A stretch of DNA of 64,000 nt from Beroe forskalii. Taxonomy: Eukaryota; Ctenophora; Nuda; Beroida; Beroidae. The stretch is from the NCBI GenBank assembly GCA_011033025.1, contig WFMF01000144.1:310001-374000 (forward strand). The letters are read 5' to 3'. Positions 46,941 through 62,273 of this stretch are shown here, in pieces. The notes beneath the pieces were generated by a model, which saw only the letters and a program-made list of their open reading frames with translations, searched no databases and was not told where the DNA came from. A program made the translations under genes and the position numbers. Within the stretch, counting starts at the first letter, position 1. Each line of letters starts with the position of its first letter.

Positions 46941-47732
46941 ATGGAACACCCCTCTCCCGACGGAACCATCCCCTTCCTTGACGTCCTCATCCATCCCGAC
47001 AAGTCCACATCGGTCTACAGGAAACCCACCCACACCAACCTCTACACCCGCTACGACTCCTGCACAACGACTTCCTCCAAGGACAGTGTCATCAGATCCC
47101 TCACCAGACGGGCCCACAACCTCTGCTCTCCTCAACACCTCGACGCGGAACTTCAGACAGTACGACACACCCTCCTACAGAACGGATTCCCTCCCTCCCG
47201 CATCTCCTCCATCATGACAGAGGTCTCCCAGAAATTCAACAATCCCTCCACCCACCAATCTCGCTGCCTTCAACAGAGAAATCAAACCACGACCCTCCTT
47301 GAAGACATTCCTACCCTTCCATCCCTCCTCTCCAAACCCATCAAGAAGATCCTCAACGACCACGACATCGACGTCACCTTCTCCTCCAACACCTCCCTCC
47401 GGAACCTCCTCACCAAGACAAAGACTACTCCACCGTCCTCCCAGACTCCCAACACCATCTACGAGATCAGCTGCCTCGACTGCCCCGCCAAGTACAACGG
47501 ACAGACCTACCGCCCCCTCCTCGACAGGATGAAAGAACACGAGAGATGCTACAGACTGAATAACGCAGTTGACGACACTACAGACAGAGTGAAATCTGCT
47601 CCAGCTCATCACTCCCTCACCACTGGACACAACATTGCCTGGAACGACATCCACATCCTCAAGTCCCTCCCCTCCCGCTCCCATCTTGACCTGACAAAAC
47701 AGGCTGCCATAACCACTGAAAACCATCCATGA
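46941..47732 (+). pseudogene. Penelope-like element fragment with GIY-YIG endonuclease
   Basis: The 263-codon open frame matches the end of a Penelope-like retroelement: a post-catalytic RT region (FLDVLIHPDKSTSVYRKPTH, TNLYTRYDS) and then a GIY-YIG-type endonuclease (IYEISCLDCPAKYNGQTYR, LLDRMKEHERCY, HHSLTTGHNIAW) with its C-x2-C pair. The fingers and palm of the RT are missing, so the copy is 5'-truncated and cannot move itself. Its GC content is well above that of the surrounding DNA, and the frame is unbroken. A GCGCTTAATTTCCCTCCC-containing repeat lies on either side (about 44758 and 48253). Confidence 0.85.
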
Positions 47733-49356
47733 ACAGAACAGACAGCGCTCCAAAGTGCAGCACCCTGTGGAACCCCATCCTTCGATCCCAGGATCTCTTC
47801 AACCTTCAGACCTACTGACTCAGGAATCCTCTTCCCTAACTACTGACACCACTTTTTCTTGTTTATGTTATTAGTGATATTATATTTGATTATCCCGTCA
47901 CCTGATCACTCACACCCTCCACCCTTCCCCCACTCCCTGACACCACTCATTTCATTTATAAGCATCCTCTCACCTTCCATCTTCAGCTGACGACGATAAT
48001 CACATGATTTTCGAAAGCTCCTGATTTAAAGTTTATCGTATCATTTAAACGTTTTAAATTGCTCTCTAAAATGTTTTTTCATTTTATAGCAGAATCACAC
48101 TTGTAAAATAAGAAATATTTCAGATGTGGTGACATCAGATTAAATTGAATTGCATGAAAGTCTGTTGCATGTGCAAATGATCCCAAATAAATACAGAACA
48201 AGAATTGCACCTGCCGGCATAACTCTTGTTTGTCCGTTGTTCCTGTATGCAGGCGCTTAATTTCCCTCCCTGTGGTGCTTGAAGTTGATGTTAACTTATA
48301 GTATCATGATAGAACACATGCACGCTGTCCTTCTCTTAGCATGAGCATAATTTAAGCTTATCTAACAGCGCATGGTGATACTGTTGCATTAATTGAAAGA
48401 AAGCTAGTGTAAGAGGTCCCCATATTTTCGTATCTCTATGAAAATTCAATATAGCGCTATCGTCTACAATGTTAAATATTAACATGGGTTGACGTCAGTT
48501 AAACATCAGTCAAACAACCCTGTCTGACTTTTCAGACGGCCCTGCCCACACTGCATGGAGCTCGAGTGTGCGGCATAAGTGCAGAACCTTTGCACTTCGA
48601 CTTGATTAAAGATGGAAATATTTAGTTAAATTTGTCGAAAACTTTCCTGTTTGCCATCTCAATAAACAGCTCTTGGACAATGGATGCTCTACCTTATTCA
48701 TTCCACAGTAGATAATTGTTACTAGATGCATGCTGCGATGCACTTTCATATATTTTGACATGCATCAACAATAAATGATATCCACAAGCATTTAATTGAG
48801 TGCATTGTGTGTGCAAATGAAAGAGTTGCTAGGAGACTTGCCTGTATGATGTTTACACAACTTTTATGACGTTTTTACACCACTTTTATGACGTTTTTAC
48901 ACCACTTTTATGACGTTTTTACACCAAAACCATTTTCCGGGCACTTTCCAGAAATTACAGTAGTTGTACTGCAAACCTGGACCTGCTATGCACATATCTA
49001 TTTATCACCTTCCCAAACCACGATCTCTGCTAACCCTCTTCAATGCCTTTTTGTAAGATAAAAAGGCGTTGGGGAGGAAAAAAAGTACAGTATCAACTAA
49101 CCTGTTCATGTTTAATTGCAATGAGAAGATTTTCACAAATGTTCTGCAGTAGAAAAAGAAGTTCTTTTGTCATATAAGACCATCTGCAGACATATGTGTA
49201 CCTTATACCTAATCCAATAAATCATAAATGGGTGATTCAATTCAAAGTTAGAAAAATTCAATGAGGTAAATGTAAATTGCATCACTTCAAAAATAAAACA
49301 AAAATAGAATATCTTCTTTGTAGAACAAATACCATGTATCCGTTTTGGTGACAAGG
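47733..49356. other. Repeat-bearing spacer, no gene
   Basis: Contains three copies of a 22-bp unit (GACGTTTTTACACCACTTTTAT) at about 48865-48930 and a hairpin around AATGCCTTTTTGTAAGATAAAAAGGC near 49040-49080, with a related copy near 45606. I see no coding segment. Confidence 0.6.
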
Positions 49357-50710
49357 GCTCCCCCTATTCTATGTATCACAAATTACAGAGTTCACCGTAC
49401 CCAAGCTTCCCCTACACATGGGACAACCTCTTATGAAAGCTCCCCTATACACCGCTCCCCCTAATCTAGGGATCCCCCGATTTCCGGGGCTCACCTCTAT
49501 ACCCGGTCTCGCCCATACCAGACTCACCCTTACCTTGGGCTTCGCCATACCAGGCTCCACGAACCTCGGGCTTCACCAATGCCTTGGGATAACCCCGATA
49601 CAGGGCTCACACCCGTACCAGACTCACCCTTACCTTGGGCTTCGCCATACCAGGCTCACCCGATCCTCGGGCTTCACGGATGTTCTGGGATAACCCCGAT
49701 ACAGGGGCCCACCCGTACCAGACTCACCCTTATCTTGGGCTTCACCATACCAGGCTCCACCGAACCTCGGGCTTCACTGATGTTCTGGGCTCACCCTCAA
49801 ACATGCCATCACCCATACCAGGCTCATTGGGCTTCACCGTACCTGGCTCCACCTTATCCTGGGCTACACTGATGTTTGGGCTCCACCTAATCTTAGGCTT
49901 CCACTTGGCTCCACCTAATCCTAGGCTCCACCATAACTTGGGCTCACCCTGAAACATGGGATCGCCCATACGAGGCTCACCCTTACCTTGGGCTTCACTG
50001 TACTTGGCTCCACCTTATCCTGGGCTTCGCCATAGCTTGGGCTCCCCCACACTTATTTGGGCTCCCCCACCAACTCGGGCTCCCCTATGATAACTCGGGC
50101 TCCCCCATACTAACTTGGGATCCACCTATCATATACTAACTCGGGCTCCCCACACCAACTTGGGCTCCCATATGCCAATTTGGGCTCCCCGATACCAATT
50201 TGGGCTCCCCATACTCCCATACTAACTAGGGCTCCCCCATACTAACTCGGGCTCCCCCATACTAACTCGGGCTCCTCCATACTAACTCAGGCTCCCCCAC
50301 ACTAACTCGGGCTCCCCCATACTAACTCAGGCTCCCCCATATTAACTCGAGCTCCCCCGTGCAGTACGGGCTCCCCCATACCAACTTGGGCTCCCCCGTT
50401 CTAATTGGGCTCCCCCATACCAACTTGGGCTCCCCCGTGCTGTTCGGGCTCCCCCATACCAACTTGGGCTCCCCCGTTCTGTTCGGGCTCCCCCATACCA
50501 ACTTGGGCTCCCCCGTGCTGTTCAGGCTCCCCCATACCAACTTGGGCTCCCCCGTGCTGTTCGGGCTCCCCCATACCAACTTGGGCTCCCCCGTTCTGTT
50601 TGGGCTCCCCCATACCAACTTGGGCTCCCCCGTGCTGTTCGGGCTCCCCCATACCAACTTGGGCTCCCCCGTTCTGTTCGGGCTCCCCCATAAGCTGTTT
50701 GCCCTTCCTA
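49357..50710. repeat. Left inverted terminal repeat, three-zone minisatellite
   Basis: From outside in: a short unique tip; units like GGGCTTCACCATACCAGGCT (to about 50030); about 23-bp units like GGGCTCCCCCATACTAACTC (to about 50390); and seven or eight 39-bp units pairing CCATACCAACTTGGGCTCCC with CCGTGCTGTTCGGGCTCCC. The inner edge meets the C-terminal codons of the SGNH domain. Confidence 0.85.
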
Positions 50711-50816
50711 CTTAAGTGGAGACCCCCTCTACCATATAAATCCTCTCTCAGACGACCATACCTATCAAGAAATTCCCAATAGAGATAAATCCATGTAACT
50801 CCTGGCATAATCTCGG

Positions 50817-52532
50817 TCACGTACTTTGAAAGATGGTGTTGAATGTCTCTATACGGAACAGTGTCTGCCGACACTCATAAGCTCGCGGGATAATGTTAAA
50901 TAGGCCTAGACGAGCATTGGGAAACAGTTCTCTAAGTGCCCTTATCAGTTTATGATAGTCCTCAATAACACTGAGGAATGGGACGGGTTCTGAGTGGGAG
51001 GGGACATTGATGGCATTGGTGCCAACTATGAGGGTGAGTGTTCTTACATCCTCATATGAGTCTGGGTGCAAAATGTCCGTGGAGGATGCAAGGAGGGGCA
51101 GCACTTGGTTGGGATGGATACCTCCCCTACAGATGTGCATGCTGTCGGCCACATTGAGGCCCTTAACCAGTGAATCACCAATGATGATGTTTTCCCCCAC
51201 TGCTCTGGTGGTAGGAATGTGTGGGGTTACTGGTGTTTCCTCCTGGTAGCCGTTGCCTAGTGTCTCTATTGGCGGAGGTATCCGGTGCTGTGGCTGGCGC
51301 GAGGGAGTGTTCGTAGAGGGAGGAGGGTCCAGGGAGGGAGGAGGGTCCAGGGATGGAGGAGGATCCTGGGAGGGAGGATTCAGGGAGGGAGGGAGCCGAG
51401 AGTCTTTTGGAGGAGGAAGTTCTGACAGGGGAGGATCGCTGGAGGGTGGAGGCAGTAGTGCAGGAACCGGTGTCAGTTCTGCAGTCATAAGTCGTCTAGG
51501 TGCGCTCTGCAGGGCATGGAGAATGGGGGTGGAATGGATGACAAGATTCTCCGTGGCTCTTGGGGTACGTACTGGCACTATAAGAGGCTCTGGTGTTAGT
51601 TTCCGTTGAGGAGAGGTGCTGCATCGGAAGGACAGACAAAAACGCAGTCCATTTCCTCCAGGGGGGACCTTATGCCAGATATGTTGCTGGCAGCCTGGTT
51701 TCATGATGATCATGGTCCCGTGATGCATTGATATCCGTTTTACCAGGTTACCCGCCTTTTCTGGACGGGCAGACCAAAACTCGATATCCCTAGGTGTACC
51801 GATGGAGAGGTTACATATGGGGTGATCCTGATCAATCAATCCCTCGTTGTCCTGATGTAGAGGAGTGTAGTCCGATGACTTCTCGTATCGGGTCATCAGG
51901 CATGAGTCAAGCTGTAAGTTAAGGTCCTTGTTAAGCCTGTCCATGATCTTCTTGATGTGTTTGTAGGTGGCTATCTGACGGGCGTCAAGGGACCATGACC
52001 CAAATCGGTATGTGCTCGGGATGTTGGCAGAGAGCCAGATGTATTTGGTGTCAAATACAGAAAACAGTTTCAGGACCTCATTCTCCAATGATTTGAGATC
52101 TGACGCAATGACGAAGTTTTCGTTGACTGCGATAAGTTCAGCCAATGATGACAGGTTCCTTACATTGCGTGGTAGAACTTCAGATGTTTGTTCTACTGAT
52201 AAGTTCCCATCTGTTTCCCCCTCCTCATACAAGGGTGCAGATTTGGGAACTAGGTCCAAACTCTCAGGAGACGAGTCCTTAATATCCCCGGCACATTCCG
52301 ATGGCTCTTCCTTGGAAGTGTAAGAGGGGGTCCCTTGGTCGTCAGTGGAGGGGTCTGAGAATGAGCTGCTAATTGGGATAGACATCCTCTCTACTTCCTC
52401 AGAGACAAACTTTTCTATTTTGTCCAAAACCTCTTGAGGGATGGAACGATGCAAAACCAAACTAGTGAATGCCTCGATGAGCTCCTCTGCCTCTGGTGTA
52501 ATGTCCGTTGAGATTTCGTTGCTTGAGTTCAT
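50817..52532 (-). CDS. AlkB-like dioxygenase fused to SGNH/GDSL esterase (retroelement ORF1-like)
   Basis: The 571-codon frame starts at ATG 52532. Residues about 130-303 resemble an AlkB-type Fe(II)/2-oxoglutarate dioxygenase: His226-x-Asp228 (LHQDNEG), His287 (QQHIWHKVP), and Arg297 and Arg303 (GLRFCLSFR), with six residues between the arginines as in AlkB. A proline-rich linker (about 365-430) leads to an SGNH hydrolase with ENIIIGDSLVKG and IVGTNAIN; the usual GxND is GTNA. A one-base break near 50840 ends this frame. The next frame continues the domain (YVTEIMPGV, LYWEFLDRYGRL, GGLHLSRKGKQL) and then runs through the 39-bp repeats to a stop at 50401, giving a GEPEQ/GGAQVGM tail. Catalytic Asp before His is Gly, so esterase activity is doubtful. 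CR1-type ORF1 proteins carry such esterases; the AlkB part is unusual there. It is transcribed away from the RT gene. Confidence 0.75.
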   Translation of the reverse strand: MNSSNEISTDITPEAEELIEAFTSLVLHRSIPQEVLDKIEKFVSEEVERMSIPISSSFSDPSTDDQGTPSYTSKEEPSECAGDIKDSSPESLDLVPKSAPLYEEGETDGNLSVEQTSEVLPRNVRNLSSLAELIAVNENFVIASDLKSLENEVLKLFSVFDTKYIWLSANIPSTYRFGSWSLDARQIATYKHIKKIMDRLNKDLNLQLDSCLMTRYEKSSDYTPLHQDNEGLIDQDHPICNLSIGTPRDIEFWSARPEKAGNLVKRISMHHGTMIIMKPGCQQHIWHKVPPGGNGLRFCLSFRCSTSPQRKLTPEPLIVPVRTPRATENLVIHSTPILHALQSAPRRLMTAELTPVPALLPPPSSDPPLSELPPPKDSRLPPSLNPPSQDPPPSLDPPPSLDPPPSTNTPSRQPQHRIPPPIETLGNGYQEETPVTPHIPTTRAVGENIIIGDSLVKGLNVADSMHICRGGIHPNQVLPLLASSTDILHPDSYEDVRTLTLIVGTNAINVPSHSEPVPFLSVIEDYHKLIRALRELFPNARLGLFNIIPRAYECRQTLFRIETFNTIFQST

Positions 52533-53412
52533 GATGAGTGAAGTGAAAGAGTAGAAAGATCCAGGGGTTCAAGAGACCGGCGACATGAGATGAGCAGGCG
52601 GAGAGCGGTGCCACAATGGGGGCAGACCCAGCAGACCCAGGGGTGACAGCGAGCAGTGGGTGCACATTATCAGGTTCAGACACAGGTAGGAGATCCTGAA
52701 ATGAAAGAAGGCCAGCAAAAGTAAGTAACAACAAGAAGTAATGACGTTAAATGGCAGTGAAAAGTCTGATAAGTTATTTAGGTCAGAAAACAGATTTTTC
52801 CTAGGTAGACAGACTACAACTTTATGATAACTCCCAATTAAGGGGATTATTATTATTTAAGGAAAATTTGAATTGGACCATCCGTTGATTAGTTATTTGG
52901 AATAAATATCATGCGTTTACTAATGCTAAAATATGGAAAGGCAATACATATATTTGCAGGGCATTTCTAATGTCTGTAATCCTTATGGTGATCCAATAAC
53001 TTGTATTCCAAAATGAGGTCATAAGTAGCTGTTTCTGGGGACTTGAGGAAAGCCATCAATCAATGGAGAAGAGAGACACGGTGTGATTGATGGCTCCCTG
53101 TACCCTTTTGTCCACTGTCAAAATGAAACGAGCGAAAAGTATAAGAAACGCAGACTCAGTCACTATACTAAACCGAGTATCAAAGTAGGCAAGCCAGACC
53201 TGAAAACAAGGCACTGACATCAAATCAAGTTCAGAATTTGAAGATCGGAGCATCCCCATTAGAAGGACCTGTTTTCTATAATACTCTAGAAGCAAGATTG
53301 TTGAGATTTCATTTATTTCTATCATTCTTCGCCTCCATCACCATCCACAGCACATCCAAATTCACTCCTACCTCACAGATCTTATCTCCACTCAGTCACA
53401 CTTTTTATTCTA
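52533..53412. other. Spacer between the two divergent ORFs
   Basis: About 880 bp without a recognisable coding segment. If the two ORFs belong together, this should hold a two-way promoter. No TATA box or initiator stands out. If the RT gene is a separate LINE, its 5' untranslated region lies here. Confidence 0.45.
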
Positions 53413-56400
53413 ATGGGTGTTACAGCGTTACAGCATCGATGCACAATAGGAATCTATGGTAATATTCTTGCATCAAGACCACCACGAAATTCAAAAGCAG
53501 ATAGACCTCCAAAATTTATGAAGGGTAGCCTGGTCGGAATTCACGATAAACCGTATCTGGAATTGCTCTTGGCTTACTTTTATGTTTTATTAATTTGCTT
53601 AATTTTGTCAACACATATCAATGCAACCAATGTAGCTCTCATATCACAGACACGTCATCCTTGTATTCACTGCTGTGGCACAGTTACCACCTTACCCAAA
53701 TTAAATATTCTTATTAACTGGGCAGTGATTGCCCTCCTTTTCTTCACTAAGAACCATGGTAAGAGTCCATCGGTACTTGAAACCATGGCGCGCTCAAGGC
53801 TGCGACACTATAATGTTGTAAATGCCTGGTATCATATGTTCTTTAAAAATCCTAAGACTAGCCTCTTCTATCTTAGTATGTTGAATTTATTGCTGATAGT
53901 AATAGTGACACCAAGCATCGTTAACCCCGGACCTAAGCCTAGGCCAATGACCCTCTTCTATAATAACGTGCAAGGCCTCATAGATCCTAGTCAGATTAAA
54001 TCCAAAACCCCAAAACTTAACATGACGAAAATACATGAACTCCATTCATATCTCTTTGTAAATAAACCTGATATAGTTGTTTTGAACGAAACCTGGATAA
54101 ATTCTTCTATTCTTGATTCAGAAGTTTTACCCAACACATACAAAGTGTTTAGAGAAGACAGGACTTTAAAAACACATCCTTTCGACCCAAAACAGCCTAA
54201 AAAATTCCGTAGAGGAGGAGGCGGTGTCTTGATAGGCATACGGAATGATATCGATGTTGAATGTACGAAGGTTGGTTTTATTAAGGTACAGGCTGAGATA
54301 TTATCAGTAAATATTAAGACACCTTCAGGTAAAAGGTTTAATGTAACCACCCTCTACAGAGTAGGAAACCTAGGCACGGATAATTTCGATGAAGTTAGGA
54401 AATTCTTCACTGGACTTGCAAGTAAGAAAAAATTAGATAAACATATTCTTATCGGTGACTTGAATTTCCCTGAGGTAAAATGGCCTGATACCTCAACATC
54501 TGTCAACCTGCATAAGAGCTTTATTGACATGATTACTGACGAATTCGGCCATACACAATTAATTGATGTGCCCACCCACAAGGGCGGCAATATTCTTGAT
54601 TTGGCCTTCACTAACATTTCGGACTTAATTAAGGATGTAAAAGTTCTCAGCCATAATGAAGCATGTAATTCAGATCACTTTGGTATAGATTTTAAGGTTG
54701 GGCTAGATGTCTCTTACAGGAAAATGGAGAAGCGGAAGATTTTCAATTTCTCCAAGGCAAACTGGAGAGGGTTAAATTTTGAGCTCAAAAAAATAGATTG
54801 GAACGCCTTAATCGAATCTAAGGATCCTCATATATCATGGCCATTATTTAAGAATACACTCCACACCCTATGTAACAAATATATTCCTAAAAAGTTATTA
54901 GGCACCAATTCGAACCTCCTTGGTTCGATAGTGATTGTGATCGAGTAAGACGTGAGAAAGAAAAATGGAGAGTAAAGGCCAATTCTGAAAACGGTACTAA
55001 TTATGACAGAGAAAAATATCGGAAATCAAGGAGGGATCTTAAGAAAATTATGAATCTAAAGATGAGAATTAATGTGCAAGATGATGATGATACGTCACTG
55101 ATACCAAAAAAATTCTGGAAGTACGTTAAATCTAAGTCTAAATCTACCCGCATACCTGAAACTGTCTGGTATAAAAACTGCTATCGAACAAAACCTAATG
55201 ACCAAGCTAACCTATTTAACACATTCTTTTCTGACCAATTCTCCGAGGCCAGCTCCTATGACATTGATATTGATATGCAACCTGACTTGGACCGTTTTAA
55301 TGGACTAACATTTCACGAATTTGATGTATTCCTTTTACTCAAAAATGTTAACCCTAGCAAAGCTGCAGGCCCAGATGGCATCCATGGTATGGTCCTTAAA
55401 AATTGTGCAGCCACACTAGCACGGCCCCTTACAATAATGTTTAATATATCTTATAACACTGGTTGTATACCATGTGATTGGAAACTTGCATCTGTTGTAC
55501 CAGTGCATAAGAAAGATGAAAAGGGCTCAGTAGAAAATTACAGACCAATCTCCTTGACATCCTTAGTAATGAAAATTTTCGAACGTTGCATAAAGAAAGA
55601 GCTTTTTAATGAATGCGAACGCCTCCTAGATGTAAGACAGCATGGTTTTATAAATGAGAAATCGTGTACCACTCAAATGGTCCCATTTATTCACAACATT
55701 TCGTTATCCCTTAACAATAAATCTAAAACTGATATTATTTACTTTGACTTTGCCAAAGCCTTTGACAGTGTCTCACATGACTTGATATTGCGTAAACTAA
55801 AGGATAAATTTAATATAAATGGACCCATGCTCAGATTTATTCGTGCATATTTGAAGGACAGGAAACAGCAGGTAGTAATTGGTGGATCACTGTCGACTCA
55901 GTTACCAGTCAACTCAGGAGTACCCCAAGGTTCTATTCTAGGTCCCTTGCTATTTGTTTTATTTATTAATGACATGTTCGACTGTATAAGTCCTGAAACT
56001 TACATCGCCCTTTATGCAGATGATACAAAAATCTGGAGAGAAATTGAGATATCGGCTGATCATTTTGCTCTACAAGCTGACATAGATAATCTTCATAACT
56101 GGTCTGTACTAAACAAGATGAAATTTCATCCTTCGAAATGTAAAGCTTTAGCTGTTACAAACCAAAGAAACATACTCCATAATCTACCATGTACAATCTT
56201 CCAGTACAAGCTTCACAATACTTACATAGATTATGTTGCATCTCAAGTAGATCTGGGAGTCACAGTAAACTCTAGACTTTTATGGTCAGAACAATGCAAC
56301 AGTCTCTTATCTAAAGCAAGCTCCCGTCTAGGACTTGTAACACGTATTTGTCATTTCACCTGTGATAAAAGACAAAAAAGAACCTTTTACCTTACACTAG

Positions 56401-56909
56401 TTAGGTCTTTATTTGAGCATTGCTCTATCATTTGGCATCCAGTCAGCTCCAACCAGCTCAGTGGTTTTGAGGCCATCCAAAAGCGGGCCATTAAGTGGAT
56501 TGAAGGCCGTCCCCATGACCATATCTGTGATACTGAATACTATAATAAACTGAAAACCCTGAATATCCCTCCAATAAAACACAAATTTATCATAACTGAC
56601 CTAATCATGATGTTCAAAATCATACACTCTCTTATCACCATCACCTTACCAGAAGGCTTTCATATCATTAAACATACTGAAGTAAGGAGCACCAGAAGTA
56701 CACATGATATTGTGAGCAAAGAGGATTGTTCAAGATTAAAATGTACCATAAGGCCCAATTGTGATAATTTTAGGAATTCATTTTTCTATAGAACAATGGT
56801 CATATGGAACAAAATCCCTTATAGTATTAGGCAAGTTAAAAGCATCTCCACCTTTAAATCACAACTCAAAACTTTCCTTTGGAAAGCAGATCTAGACTGG
56901 CCCGATTAA
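53413..56909 (+). CDS. LINE ORF2: AP-type endonuclease and reverse transcriptase, one frameshift
   Basis: The ORF begins at ATG 53413 with a hydrophobic N-terminus of about 170 residues that ends in NPGPKPRP. The endonuclease follows (YNNVQG, VLNETW, ILIGDLNFPEVKW, CNSDHFGIDF). The frame breaks at about 54890-54925. In the next frame it continues PPWFDSDCDRVRREKEKW and then the reverse transcriptase (SKAAGPDGIHG, ENYRPISL, DIIYFDFAKAFDSVSH, SGVPQGSILGPLLF, YADD), ending at 56909 after the usual C-terminal region (RTFYLTLVRSLFEHCSIIW). Motifs fit the CR1/Jockey group. All catalytic motifs are intact and only one single-base break is seen, so the copy is young. No esterase ORF1 lies upstream on the same strand; one lies upstream on the opposite strand. 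Confidence 0.9.
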
Positions 56910-57295
56910 TTCAATTTACTCAGTCCGTGAACTAGATGGTCATTAAGTTGTAAGGCAAGAGCAAAATACCCTTATACAAGAAATTATTAACAAATTTGTA
57001 TTTTTCGAAATGATGGTCTTGATGCAGAAAAGTAATTTCTTTGTGGCCTAGGACTTTAAGTGTGACAATTTAAATACCAATCTATGATTACAATTGACAA
57101 CCATATTATTTGTGAGTTTGTGATTTAATTTTATCAGATGACGTAATTATTTATTATTATTGTTATCATTTATTTTATACCCTATTTATTGATTGATGTT
57201 TTTGACGGGCCTCCCTGTAATAATGGTTAACGCTGTGTTGGGAGTTTAGCCCAGATTTTGCACTTGATTTATATTTTCTGTGCTATTTTGCTGTG

Positions 57296-57655
57296 GGCTC
57301 CCCCTGCTTTTGGGCTCCCCCACACAAACTCGGGCTCCCCCATACTAACTCTGGCTACCCCTACTACCTCGGGCTCCCCACACTAACTCGGGCTACCCCA
57401 TACTAACTCGGGCTCCCCCATACTAACTCGGGCTCCCCCATACCATCTTGGGCTCCCCGTTCTGTTCGGGCTCCCCATACCAACTTAGGCTCCCCGTGCT
57501 GTTCAGGCTCCCCCCATACCAACTTGGGCTCCCGTGCTGTTCGGGTTCCCCTATACTAACATGGGCTCCCCCGTGCTTTTCGGGCTCCCCCATACCAACT
57601 TGGGCTCCCCCGTGCTGTTCGGGCTCCCCCATACCAACTTGGGCTCCCCCGTTCT
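57296..57655. repeat. Forward satellite piece facing the right arm
   Basis: About 360 bp of 23-bp and 39-bp units run in the same orientation as the left arm and meet the reversed right-arm units at 57655-57660, making a perfect-looking palindromic junction (TTGGGCTCCCCC..GGGGGAGCCCAAG). It begins directly after the LINE 3' region. Confidence 0.85.
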
Positions 57656-57656
57656 G

Positions 57657-59064
57657 TTCGGTCCAAGTTGGTATGGGGGAGCCCGAACAGAACGGGGGAG
57701 CCCAAGTTGCTTTGGGGGAGCCCGAACAGTACGGGGGAGCCCATGTGAGTATAGGGGAGCCCGAACAGCACCGGGAGCCCAAGTTGGTATGGGAGAGCCC
57801 GAACCGCACGGGGGAGCCCATGTTAGTATGGGGGAGCCCGAACAGCACAGGGGAGCCCATGTTAGTATAGGGGAGCCGAAACAGGGGGAGCCCAAGTTGG
57901 TATGGGGGAGCCCGAACATTACGGGGGAGCCCAAGTTTGTATGGGGGAGCCAAAGTCGATATGGGGGAGCCCGAACAGCACGGGGGAGCCCATGTTAGTA
58001 TAGGGGAGCCCGAACAGTACAGGGGAGCCCATGTTAGTATAGGGGAGCCCGAACAGAACGGGGGAGCCCAAGATGGTAATATGGTATGGGGGAGTCCGAG
58101 TTAGTATGGGGGAGCCCGAGTTAGTATGGGGTAGCCCGAGTTAGTATGGGGAGCCCGAGGTAGTAGGGGGAGCCCGAGTTAGTATGGGGGAGCCCAAGTT
58201 AGTATGGGGGAGCCCCTGTTAGTATGGGAAGCCCAAGTTGGTTTGGGGGAGCCCAAGTTAATAAAGGGGAGCCCGAGGTAGTATGGGGGAGCCCAAGTTG
58301 GTGTGGGGGAGCCCGATTTAGTATAGGGGAGCCCAAGTTGGAAGGTGGATCCCAAGTAAGTATGGGGGAGCCCGAGTTATCATATGTGAGCCCGAGTTGG
58401 TAGGGGGAGCCTATGTAAGTGTGGGGGAGCCCAAGCTATGGTGAAGCCCGGGATAAGGTGTAGCCAAGGTCGGTGGAGCCCAAGGTAAGGGTGAGCCTCG
58501 TATGGGCAATCCCATGTATCTTGGTGAGCCCAAGTTATGGTGAAGCCCAGGATAAGGTGGAGCCAAGTTCGGTGAAGCCCAAGGTAAGGGTGAGCCTGGT
58601 ATGGGTGATCCCATGTTGAAGGGTGAGCCCAGAACATCAGTGAAGCCCGAGGTTCGGGTGAGCCTGTTATGGTGAAGCCCAAGGTAAGGGTGAGCCTGGT
58701 ACGGGTGAGCCCCTGTATCGGGGTTATCCCAAGGCATTGGTGAAGCCCGAAATTCGGTGGAGCCTGGTATGGCGAAGCCCGGCAATAAGGTGAGTCTGGT
58801 ACGGGTGAGCCCCTGTATCGGGGGTTATCCCAAGGCATTGGTGAAGCCCGAGTTTCGGTGGGGCCTGGTATGGTGAAGCCCGGCAATAGGGTGAGTCTGG
58901 TATGGGCGAGACCGGGTATAGAGGTGAGCCCCGGACAATCGGGGGGAGCCCTAGATTAAGGGGAGCAGTGTACAGGGGAGTCCGTGATTAGAGGTGATAC
59001 CAGGTTTAGGGGAAGCCTCCGTACGGTGAACTCTGTAATTTGTGATCCCGGGAATAAGGGGAGC
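57657..59064. repeat. Right inverted terminal repeat
   Basis: This is the reverse complement of the left arm in zone order: 39-bp units (57660-58080), about 23-bp units (58080-58430), CACCATACC-type units (58430-58920), then the unique tip with ACGGTGAACTCTGTAATTTG. The long frames that cross it are by-products of repeat periods. Confidence 0.85.
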
Positions 59065-59639
59065 ATTAATGGGGCCGTGATGGTCCTGGGATCTGAAGAC
59101 TTATTAGCTCATCTGAAAGTACTCGTCAAGCTGATCATCATGGTTTTTGTCCAAAATTCCTAACATGATTTTAAGTGGGTTAACGAGGCACTTGAAAATC
59201 GGCTAAAACCAGTCACGTGATACACCACGCGCTACTCTCTCCCGTAACATAACCCTCTCATCAGAGCTAATGATGTGGTGCTCACGCCCGCCCTCTCGCA
59301 GCACTAATTGCATCAGCATATGCGATCATACCCATCATAATTATGCAGTACCGGCCCTTCCACTTCCAATGAGGAAGTTGTTTGTCTTCCATTCGAAACC
59401 TAATTAAATGGCGAGCAGAATGTGTGTACTGAGTGTGGATGGTGCTAACAATAACATTACCACAACACAGCGCTGCTGCAATAATTGACATTCGAACCAC
59501 TACATCGCCCGAATATTTCGAAGTTTCAATATTTTCGTTCATACCCATTCTGCAGGGAGACCGGAAAAGAATTGTTGAAAAATGATTCAAAACTTCAAAA
59601 ATAAATAAAAAATCACAATCATGAGAGGCATAATCCACG

Positions 59640-61130: not shown

Positions 61131-62273
61131 GCCTACAATTGGCAGCTCCTCATTTAATCCTCCCGCACAGTTTCCTGTACGTCCAGAGAAGTTTAAGGTG
61201 CGGCGACATCCTCTGCACCAGGGGCCTATTTCGTAGGTACTTCAATTTATTCATTCAGGGCACTGGGGGCAGCACCATAGAAGCCAGAATTCTGACTTTG
61301 AGATATAAGAAAATATAATACTCAAATCAGGGAGAATTTGAAGAAGAAAGCGGGGGTCTGGGGGCAGCAGCCCCCAGAAACCAGACCTCCTGGGTAAACA
61401 AAATTGCCACCTCTCGGCCTCATACAAATATAATTGAAAACACTTTGGAATTTGGGACCTATCTGGAAAGCTGGGGCCGGCGACAGATGTCGCCGAAACG
61501 CCCCCTCTCAATGGCCTGGTACGCTTGCAAGTCAACCGTGAGGCTTGAGATACCAAAGTATCTTTCACCCGTAGCTCAGTCGGAAATGGAATGGTAGAGA
61601 ATCGATTCGGGATCTTTCGATCACGAGCCAGACTAGATTAAGATACCAATACACCAACTGAGTATACCTACTGACCACGCAGTAAGTTAAAGTATAAGAG
61701 ATTGAATTCTTCTTTCACATTCCCCTGAAATAAAAATCGAAACTCAGATAAGGTACCATTACCAGCTCCAAGTCGAACTTCATAAAAACTATTATTTCTA
61801 ACCCCCTATTATTCTTAGCTTCTCCCCTGAATCTTGAAACTTCGAAATATTCGGGCAATGTAGTGGTTCGAATATCAATTATTACAACAGCGCTGTGTTG
61901 TAATAATGTTAACACCATCCACACTCAGTACACACATTCTGCTCGCCATTTAATTAGGTTTCGAATGGAAGACAAACAACTTCCTCATTGGAAGTGGAAG
62001 GGCCGGTACTGCATAATTATGATGGGTATGATCGCATATGCTGATGCAATTAGTGCTGCGAGAGGGCGGGCGTGAGCACCATATCATTAGCTCTGATGAG
62101 AGGGTTATGTTACGGGAGAGAGTAGCGCGTGGTGTATCACGTGACTGGTTTTAGCCGATTTTCAAGTGCCTCGTTAGCCCACTTAAAATCATGTTAGGAA
62201 TTTCGGACAAAAACCATGATGATCAGCTTGACGAGTACTTTCAGATGAGCTAATAAGTCATCAGATCCATTCC

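Follow-up and report, generated by a model that had tools for sequence, protein, structure and literature searches.

A broken LINE with an AlkB-SGNH ORF1 nested in a foldback element of the ctenophore Beroe forskalii

How did two large gene regions that are transcribed away from each other come to lie between long inverted arms in the genome of Beroe forskalii? The question is raised by a stretch of 64,000 nucleotides (hereafter the window), which comprises bases 310001-374000 of contig WFMF01000144.1 (C186; other loci are named by contig in the same way, e.g. C154) in a 216-Mb assembly of 1134 contigs (GCA_011033025.1). An initial annotation, made from the sequence of the window, noted an open reading frame (ORF) for an AlkB-esterase protein and a divergent endonuclease (EN)-reverse transcriptase (RT) gene, and considered that they might form a new kind of element. 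Our analysis shows that the unit is two nested mobile elements: a long interspersed element (LINE) lies approximately 370 bp left of the centre of a foldback element. It is also well supported that the AlkB-SGNH ORF is the ordinary ORF1 of the same LINE group as the RT.

The inverted arms around the divergent ORFs were confirmed as a real feature of the sequence. The left arm (49357-50695) is collinear with the right arm (59064-57709) at 80% over 1423 columns, and a global alignment of both arms gives 84% identity over 1361 aligned columns. The arm-versus-arm score is 1324 bits, compared with at most 37 bits in 100 dinucleotide shuffles, and the arm tip alone scores 147 bits against 29 in such shuffles; a chance origin of the arms is thus ruled out. 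The order of zones is identical in both arms (units of ~100 bp, then 20 bp, then 39 bp), so that the matching tips and zones noticed by the initial annotation were borne out. Family-related arm sequence spans ~49334 to ~59071, slightly beyond 49357..59064, and the arms of the host foldback meet at a palindrome centre near 57661 with almost no loop. On the right side, the block 57290-57661 has the orientation of the left arm, giving the order left arm, LINE, left-oriented arm block and palindrome centre. The two gene regions transcribed apart were likewise recovered as ORFs and domains: a minus-strand ORF of 571 aa (50817-52532) matches 2OG-FeII_Oxy_2 (E 1.8e-13), and two plus-strand ORFs contain EN (53413-54948; PF14529, PF03372) and RVT_1 (55050-56909; PF00078, E 1.9e-30), respectively. 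The parts of the unit are as follows (UTR, untranslated region).

49334..50690, plus strand: left foldback arm; units of ~100 bp, followed by units of 20 bp and of 39 bp, in this order; family terminus lacking its outer ~25 bp
50691..52532, minus strand: LINE ORF1, inverted; N-terminal region, AlkB (51651-52013), proline-rich linker, SGNH (~50700-51195); last ~13 codons replaced by arm
52533..53270, minus strand: LINE 5' UTR and spacer of uncertain origin; 136 bp common to C186:281.6k, ~220-314 bp conserved among sister LINEs
52831..53033, no strand assigned: copy of a high-copy repeat in the spacer; matches of ~120-258 bp elsewhere (best 40 of 210 candidates scored); sharp left edge
53271..53412, plus strand: non-inverted LINE segment begins here with what is left of the sequence between ORF1 and ORF2; boundary approximate, by eye
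53413..54948, plus strand: LINE ORF2, first frame; N-terminal region, APE-type endonuclease
55050..56909, plus strand: LINE ORF2, second frame; reverse transcriptase and C-terminus
56910..57289, plus strand: LINE 3' UTR; cut ~85 bp before the A-rich 3' end of the family
57290..57661, plus strand: block of arm sequence oriented like the left arm; 88% identity with 50229-50603; reaches the palindrome centre
57662..59071, minus strand: right foldback arm; family terminus lacking its outer ~41 bp

The presence of an APE endonuclease followed by an RT in ORF2 places the inner element among APE-type non-LTR (long terminal repeat) retrotransposons, and its putative CR1/L2 (Jockey) affinity is based on domain content and homologue lists. 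ORF2 is split into two frames in the window, and its N-terminal region contains a degenerate NPGP motif, which we take to be 2A-like. The ORF1 frame is interrupted near 50860, and its end abuts the arm. Copies of the family start at different points of ORF2, i.e., they are 5' truncated, and share an A-rich 3' end, as expected for a LINE. In 14 of the 19 other tail loci the family end, GAAATAAAA..., is followed by unrelated flanks, and the remaining five depart earlier (judged by eye); the copy in the window does not reach it and stops at 57290.

To which element the AlkB-SGNH ORF belongs was answered by its relatives. A protein search of the genome with this ORF (best 76 of 674 candidates scored) returned 13 loci matching both the AlkB and the SGNH halves, the window included. 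When these were compared with an EN search (best 84 of 470 candidates scored), EN was found 0.33-1.09 kb downstream on the same strand at seven of the 12 other loci (C154, C714:181k, C281, C317, C1112, C481 and C1069) and at 9.4 kb, again downstream and on the same strand, at C714:156k. At two loci in C203 an RT tail directly follows the AlkB fragment, with a deletion between them, and no EN was among the matches listed for C333 and C581. ORF2 sequence therefore lies downstream on the ORF1 strand at 10 of the 12 loci, and at none of them is the arrangement divergent. The order was read in the sequence itself at three of the seven loci with nearby EN: C154 has an ORF1 of 659 aa, then 140 bp, then an ORF2 starting with MGISATEHR (MGVTALQHR, a similar start, in the window); at C281, ORF1, EN and RT share a strand; and at C714:181k, EN follows ORF1. 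The usual LINE layout, in which ORF2 follows ORF1 on one strand, is thus present in the relatives and absent from the window copy, in which ORF1 is inverted. In addition, the 5' part of this AlkB-SGNH ORF1 occurs on its own, with no ORF2 nearby, at C186:281.6k.

Two of these loci have structures of their own. The LINE ORF2 at C154:120600-124200 (L067) is interrupted by approximately 3.8 kb containing a 247-aa ORF of a Mutator-like transposase family (PF20700, E 4e-8, above cut-off). C203:498500-514500 (L050/L051) is palindromic, with outer arms of 2.8 kb at 97% identity that each hold a deleted copy of the AlkB-RT LINE; a protein of 527 aa that resembles a coiled coil and matches GDSL weakly, below cut-off, is encoded at its centre.

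AlkB-bearing LINEs appear to be common in this genome. Among the best 150 of 189 candidates scored, 150 AlkB domains were above the Pfam cut-off, of which 99 sit in open frames of at least 400 codons. Pairing them with the best 150 of 2862 RT candidates gave 31 AlkB-RT pairs within 6 kb. These comprise 28 same-strand pairs with AlkB upstream (RT lies 2.5-2.75 kb from AlkB in 22 of them), two same-strand pairs with AlkB downstream and one divergent pair; the 28 pairs represent positions of AlkB and RT domain matches. The divergent pair, C1027:17749-22895, is the only one within this distance besides the window; as located by domain matches, its members are 4.0 kb apart, and it could reflect another inversion or simply neighbours without any relation. 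A second divergent pair, 7.3 kb apart and likewise located by domain matches, is found in C336.

The initial annotation had suggested that ORF1 and ORF2 were split into a divergent two-promoter unit that is mobilised through its inverted ends. The arrangement as read in the window would agree with this, and the divergent pairs at C1027 and C336 might be counted in its favour. Against it stand the same-strand layout of 10 of the 12 relatives and the lack of any divergent one, as well as the state of the copy itself: both outer termini are missing, and the frames of both ORFs are broken. Moreover, a genome search with the spacer found no match besides the common repeat and 136 bp of 5' UTR, leaving 52670-53270 only partly explained. 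The other copies of the arms, described below, are equally unfavourable, and we regard such a new mobile architecture as extremely improbable.

The arms were followed across the genome by tip searches, in which the best 40 of 393 left-tip and the best 40 of 340 right-tip candidates were scored. A total of 22 facing tip pairs within 15 kb were obtained. One of them (C170:631734 with C170:618366) was dropped as mispaired, since the tip at 631734 reads as the right tip of another element, resulting in the window and 20 others, with lengths of 1.2-13.5 kb. Outside the 20 were four further neighbours with wrong geometry and two pairs from the left-tip query alone (C376, 4.3 kb; C170:626.6k, 5.4 kb). 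None of the 20 other pairs encloses an AlkB-SGNH match among the candidates scored above, and only one, at C247, encloses a LINE-tail match (best 40 of 85 candidates compared). AlkB as native foldback cargo was accordingly rejected, and no copy keeping divergent ORFs between the same tips, which the initial annotation had proposed to count with spacer and tip searches, was found among the 20. The alternative considered in that annotation was the insertion of a LINE into a foldback bearing AlkB. Half of this holds: there is a LINE in the foldback, but the AlkB ORF is part of that LINE and not of the foldback. The annotation had also named what would refute the divergent unit, namely RT genes with a standard upstream ORF1 but no AlkB neighbour, and copies of the AlkB ORF between the arms that lack any RT gene. 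This was borne out in part: arms matching neither AlkB-SGNH nor the LINE tail (19 of the 20 other pairs) and RT genes with a standard upstream ORF1 were indeed found, but that ORF1 is itself the AlkB ORF.

The arms therefore constitute a foldback family separate from the LINE, with long, inverted, multi-copy arms of tandem repeats. In 19 tip stretches the family termini end in (C)AATGGGGTTGGCAAGTA... with small variants. The window copy lacks these termini, its true ends being expected ~25 bp further out on the left and ~41 bp further out on the right. Target duplications, which the initial annotation had proposed to look for, gave no signal above background in 14 pairs (mean longest match of 2.57 versus 2.58 in shuffled pairings). 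Well-defined termini with no target-site duplication signal are unusual for a transposon with terminal inverted repeats. Long, zoned inverted arms of tandem repeats are also known from the Drosophila FB and sea-urchin TU elements. Tetris is a further foldback element with long inverted tandem-repeat arms (PMC4079207). The present family resembles all three in its zoned arms and many copies, by comparison with their descriptions, and differs in the lack of a target-site duplication signal in the 14 copy pairs.

How, then, did the LINE reach the arm, and why is its ORF1 flipped? LINE insertion into such arms does happen: at C247 (L088) a LINE tail that keeps its whole 3' end and A-run lies immediately within arm repeat, and at C469 (L035) a LINE ends against an arm-like repeat. 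For the window, we favour as the probable account a single LINE insertion with 5' inversion, in which both the single event and twin priming are inferred. 5' inversion is usually ascribed to twin priming (PMC4245944). The LINE would have inserted into the foldback arm by target-primed reverse transcription; the second cut strand would have paired with the LINE RNA close to where ORF1 ends and started backward synthesis of the 5' part from there, leaving the 5' UTR and ORF1 inverted relative to ORF2. The position of the break is consistent with this. The ORF1/ORF2 boundary is no more than ~100 bp away from it and, as judged by eye, the intergenic region of ~140 bp contains the start of the plus segment, so that the inverted 5' and the 3' segments nearly share a breakpoint, as in twin-primed L1 copies. 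The intergenic remnant contains the 12-mer GTTGAGATTTCA, common to C154 and C714, and TCACAGATCTTATCTCC, common to C603, and short motifs common to the intergenic regions of C154/C714 and to C603 are seen by eye in 53299-53412. The inverted ORF1 stops ~13 codons before its stop codon against the arm, and TATG is common to the arm and to the expected ORF1 sequence at their junction, a possible outer-junction microhomology of the kind known for twin-primed L1. Because both segments end near the ORF1/ORF2 boundary, one broken LINE with a flipped 5' part is more economical than two pieces.

Several observations weigh against a twin-primed insertion. The last ~85 bp of the LINE and its A-run are absent, unlike the intact 3' end of such an insertion. 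There is no clean short target duplication around the LINE, the only sequence on both sides being the arm block of ~375 bp at 88% identity. At the inner junction, where direct joining is expected, there is ~0.4-0.7 kb of extra sequence: ~740 bp separate ORF1 from the ORF2 segment, compared with a 5' UTR of 220-314 bp in sister LINEs, and 203 bp of this is the common repeat. The intergenic match that fixes the break consists of short motifs judged by eye, the four-base TATG microhomology may be due to chance, and two further divergent AlkB-RT pairs are indicated by domain matches (C1027 and C336). The lone ORF1 fragment at C186:281.6k indicates that 5' pieces can occur apart. Finally, the L2 element ZfL2-1 is reported to have given no 5' inversions in one cell assay (PMC4245944).

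Some of these observations suit a different origin, in which repair or gene conversion replaced the loop of the foldback with two independent LINE fragments, one a 5' piece with ORF1 and the other a piece of ORF2, and no single LINE insertion took place. Arm sequence cutting both ends of the LINE, a 3' end without A-run and the existence of the lone 5' fragment would all be explained; the range of foldback lengths suggests that their contents probably vary, and the palindromic locus in C203 also has LINE pieces in its arms. However, both pieces end within ~100 bp of one position in the LINE, where they join, and they add up to a near-complete element, which is unlikely for random fragments of an element of ~6.5 kb, and we consider this origin possible but rather unlikely. 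A further explanation would be an assembly artefact that misjoined LINE and foldback pieces. Tandem-repeat arms are hard to assemble, and the block of ~370 bp at 57290-57661 repeats left-arm sequence; the locus is nevertheless interior to a 401-kb contig, and C247 provides an independent case of a LINE in an arm, so that an artefact is improbable. Returning to the single insertion with 5' inversion, the nesting, the ORF1-ORF2 order in relatives, the position of the break and the missing LINE 3' end and foldback ends are observed. That the window holds a dead copy rather than a mobile divergent unit is far surer than the insertion account, and its flipped ORF1 looks like a one-off wreck.

Besides the unit itself, two neighbouring features were noted. 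A second inverted pair (59089-59453 and 61904-62268; 365 nt, 98%, 2450 nt between) begins 18 bp past the right end of the foldback, and may be a DNA element in its own right that deleted the foldback terminus when it inserted. An ORF of 263 aa on the plus strand (46941-47732), 1.6 kb left of the foldback, has motifs that suggest the terminal part of a Penelope-like element, including a region of GIY-YIG type; it has no Pfam match.

What sets this LINE apart is the protein encoded by its ORF1. In an alignment of 17 proteins (12 public relatives and five from this genome), the AlkB active site HxD...H...R(x5)R is invariant in all 17 (H226, D228, H287, R297 and R303), as expected for an AlkB dioxygenase. 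The GDS, GG and VGTN blocks of SGNH hydrolases are kept wherever the region is present, with few exceptions, which characterises a type IV esterase ORF1. The PF13532 cut-off was passed by the ORF1s of the window and C281, and not by those of C154 and C714:156k, whose AlkB domains are recognised by alignment only. Lipase_GDSL was above cut-off for C281 only, below it for C154 and C714:156k, and not listed for the window ORF; NCBIfam gave matches below cut-off only. By sequence, the nearest solved structure to the C154 ORF1 is ALKBH2 (E 8e-5). For whole ORF1, dN/dS could be computed in four pairs and is 0.11-0.22, although synonymous distances are 1.6-1.8, near saturation, in two of them; for the AlkB domain it is 0.21-0.25 in the two close pairs; in the fifth pair, window versus C154, synonymous sites are saturated. 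Searches of public sequence data (~8000 candidates scored in each) gave 15 relatives and nine more by profile, all without genomic context. A scan of viral contigs with the ORF1 alignment gave 29 pattern matches, none of which was confirmed.

Type IV ORF1s of CR1/L2 LINEs, such as that of zebrafish ZfL2-1, also carry a C-terminal SGNH hydrolase and are followed, on their own strand, by an APE-RT ORF2; here, an AlkB 2-oxoglutarate (2OG)-Fe(II) dioxygenase precedes the esterase. In a survey of 448 Jockey-superfamily ORF1s, neither AlkB nor oxygenase occurs in the main text (PMC4120745), and a paper on accessory domains mentions neither (PMC6338049). Among the matches listed in the literature searched, which is mainly open literature available in part, with Repbase outside its scope, no description of AlkB in a LINE ORF1 was recognised. 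The closest parallel is an orchid Ty3/gypsy retrotransposon whose AlkB-family domain includes the metal and 2OG ligands and demethylates N6-methyladenosine (m6A) in vitro (PMC9289625). That domain is ALKBH5-like, is encoded by a separate additional ORF of a plant LTR element and is described as recent (PMC9289625), whereas the AlkB domain found here is part of a LINE ORF1 that also has an esterase, is nearest in sequence to ALKBH2 among PDB structures and occurs in divergent families. Within the literature searched, AlkB was previously found in the orchid element and not in a LINE, and an ORF1 combining AlkB and SGNH is what is new here.

AlkB enzymes remove N-alkyl groups from DNA and RNA, and 1-methyladenosine (m1A) and 3-methylcytidine (m3C) stop reverse transcriptases. 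The predicted AlkB domain, carried in the ORF1 particle, could strip such RT-stopping alkyl groups from the RNA or cDNA of the element, and the esterase might serve ribonucleoprotein (RNP) or membrane handling, as proposed for ZfL2-1. The esterase of ZfL2-1 binds lipids and hydrolyses esters (PMC3905857), and DNA methyltransferases (DNMTs) and ALKB2 are reported to co-evolve because DNMTs make 3-methylcytosine (PMC9246332). A role of AlkB in favour of the element has a point against it in human L1, which is reported to be favoured by m6A and suppressed by the eraser ALKBH5 (PMC7873242). We tentatively propose, as an idea somewhat short of even odds, that AlkB-ORF1 LINEs form a major, long-lived and undescribed class, in which an RNP-borne dioxygenase removes N-alkyl marks or lesions (m1A, m3C, m6A) from LINE RNA or cDNA and thereby unblocks the RT or erases host marking.

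The divergent layout of the window copy is thus an accident that matters little; it is the ORF1 that matters. Since 99 of the 150 AlkB domains lie in frames of at least 400 codons and at least 28 are upstream of an RT, many AlkB domains in this genome are probably LINE ORF1s and not host repair genes, for which they may be mistaken in annotation. If the proposal is true, a LINE lineage would carry its own oxidative demethylase, in many divergent copies under purifying selection, and would link retrotransposition to RNA/DNA methylation in a way that is testable in one protein.

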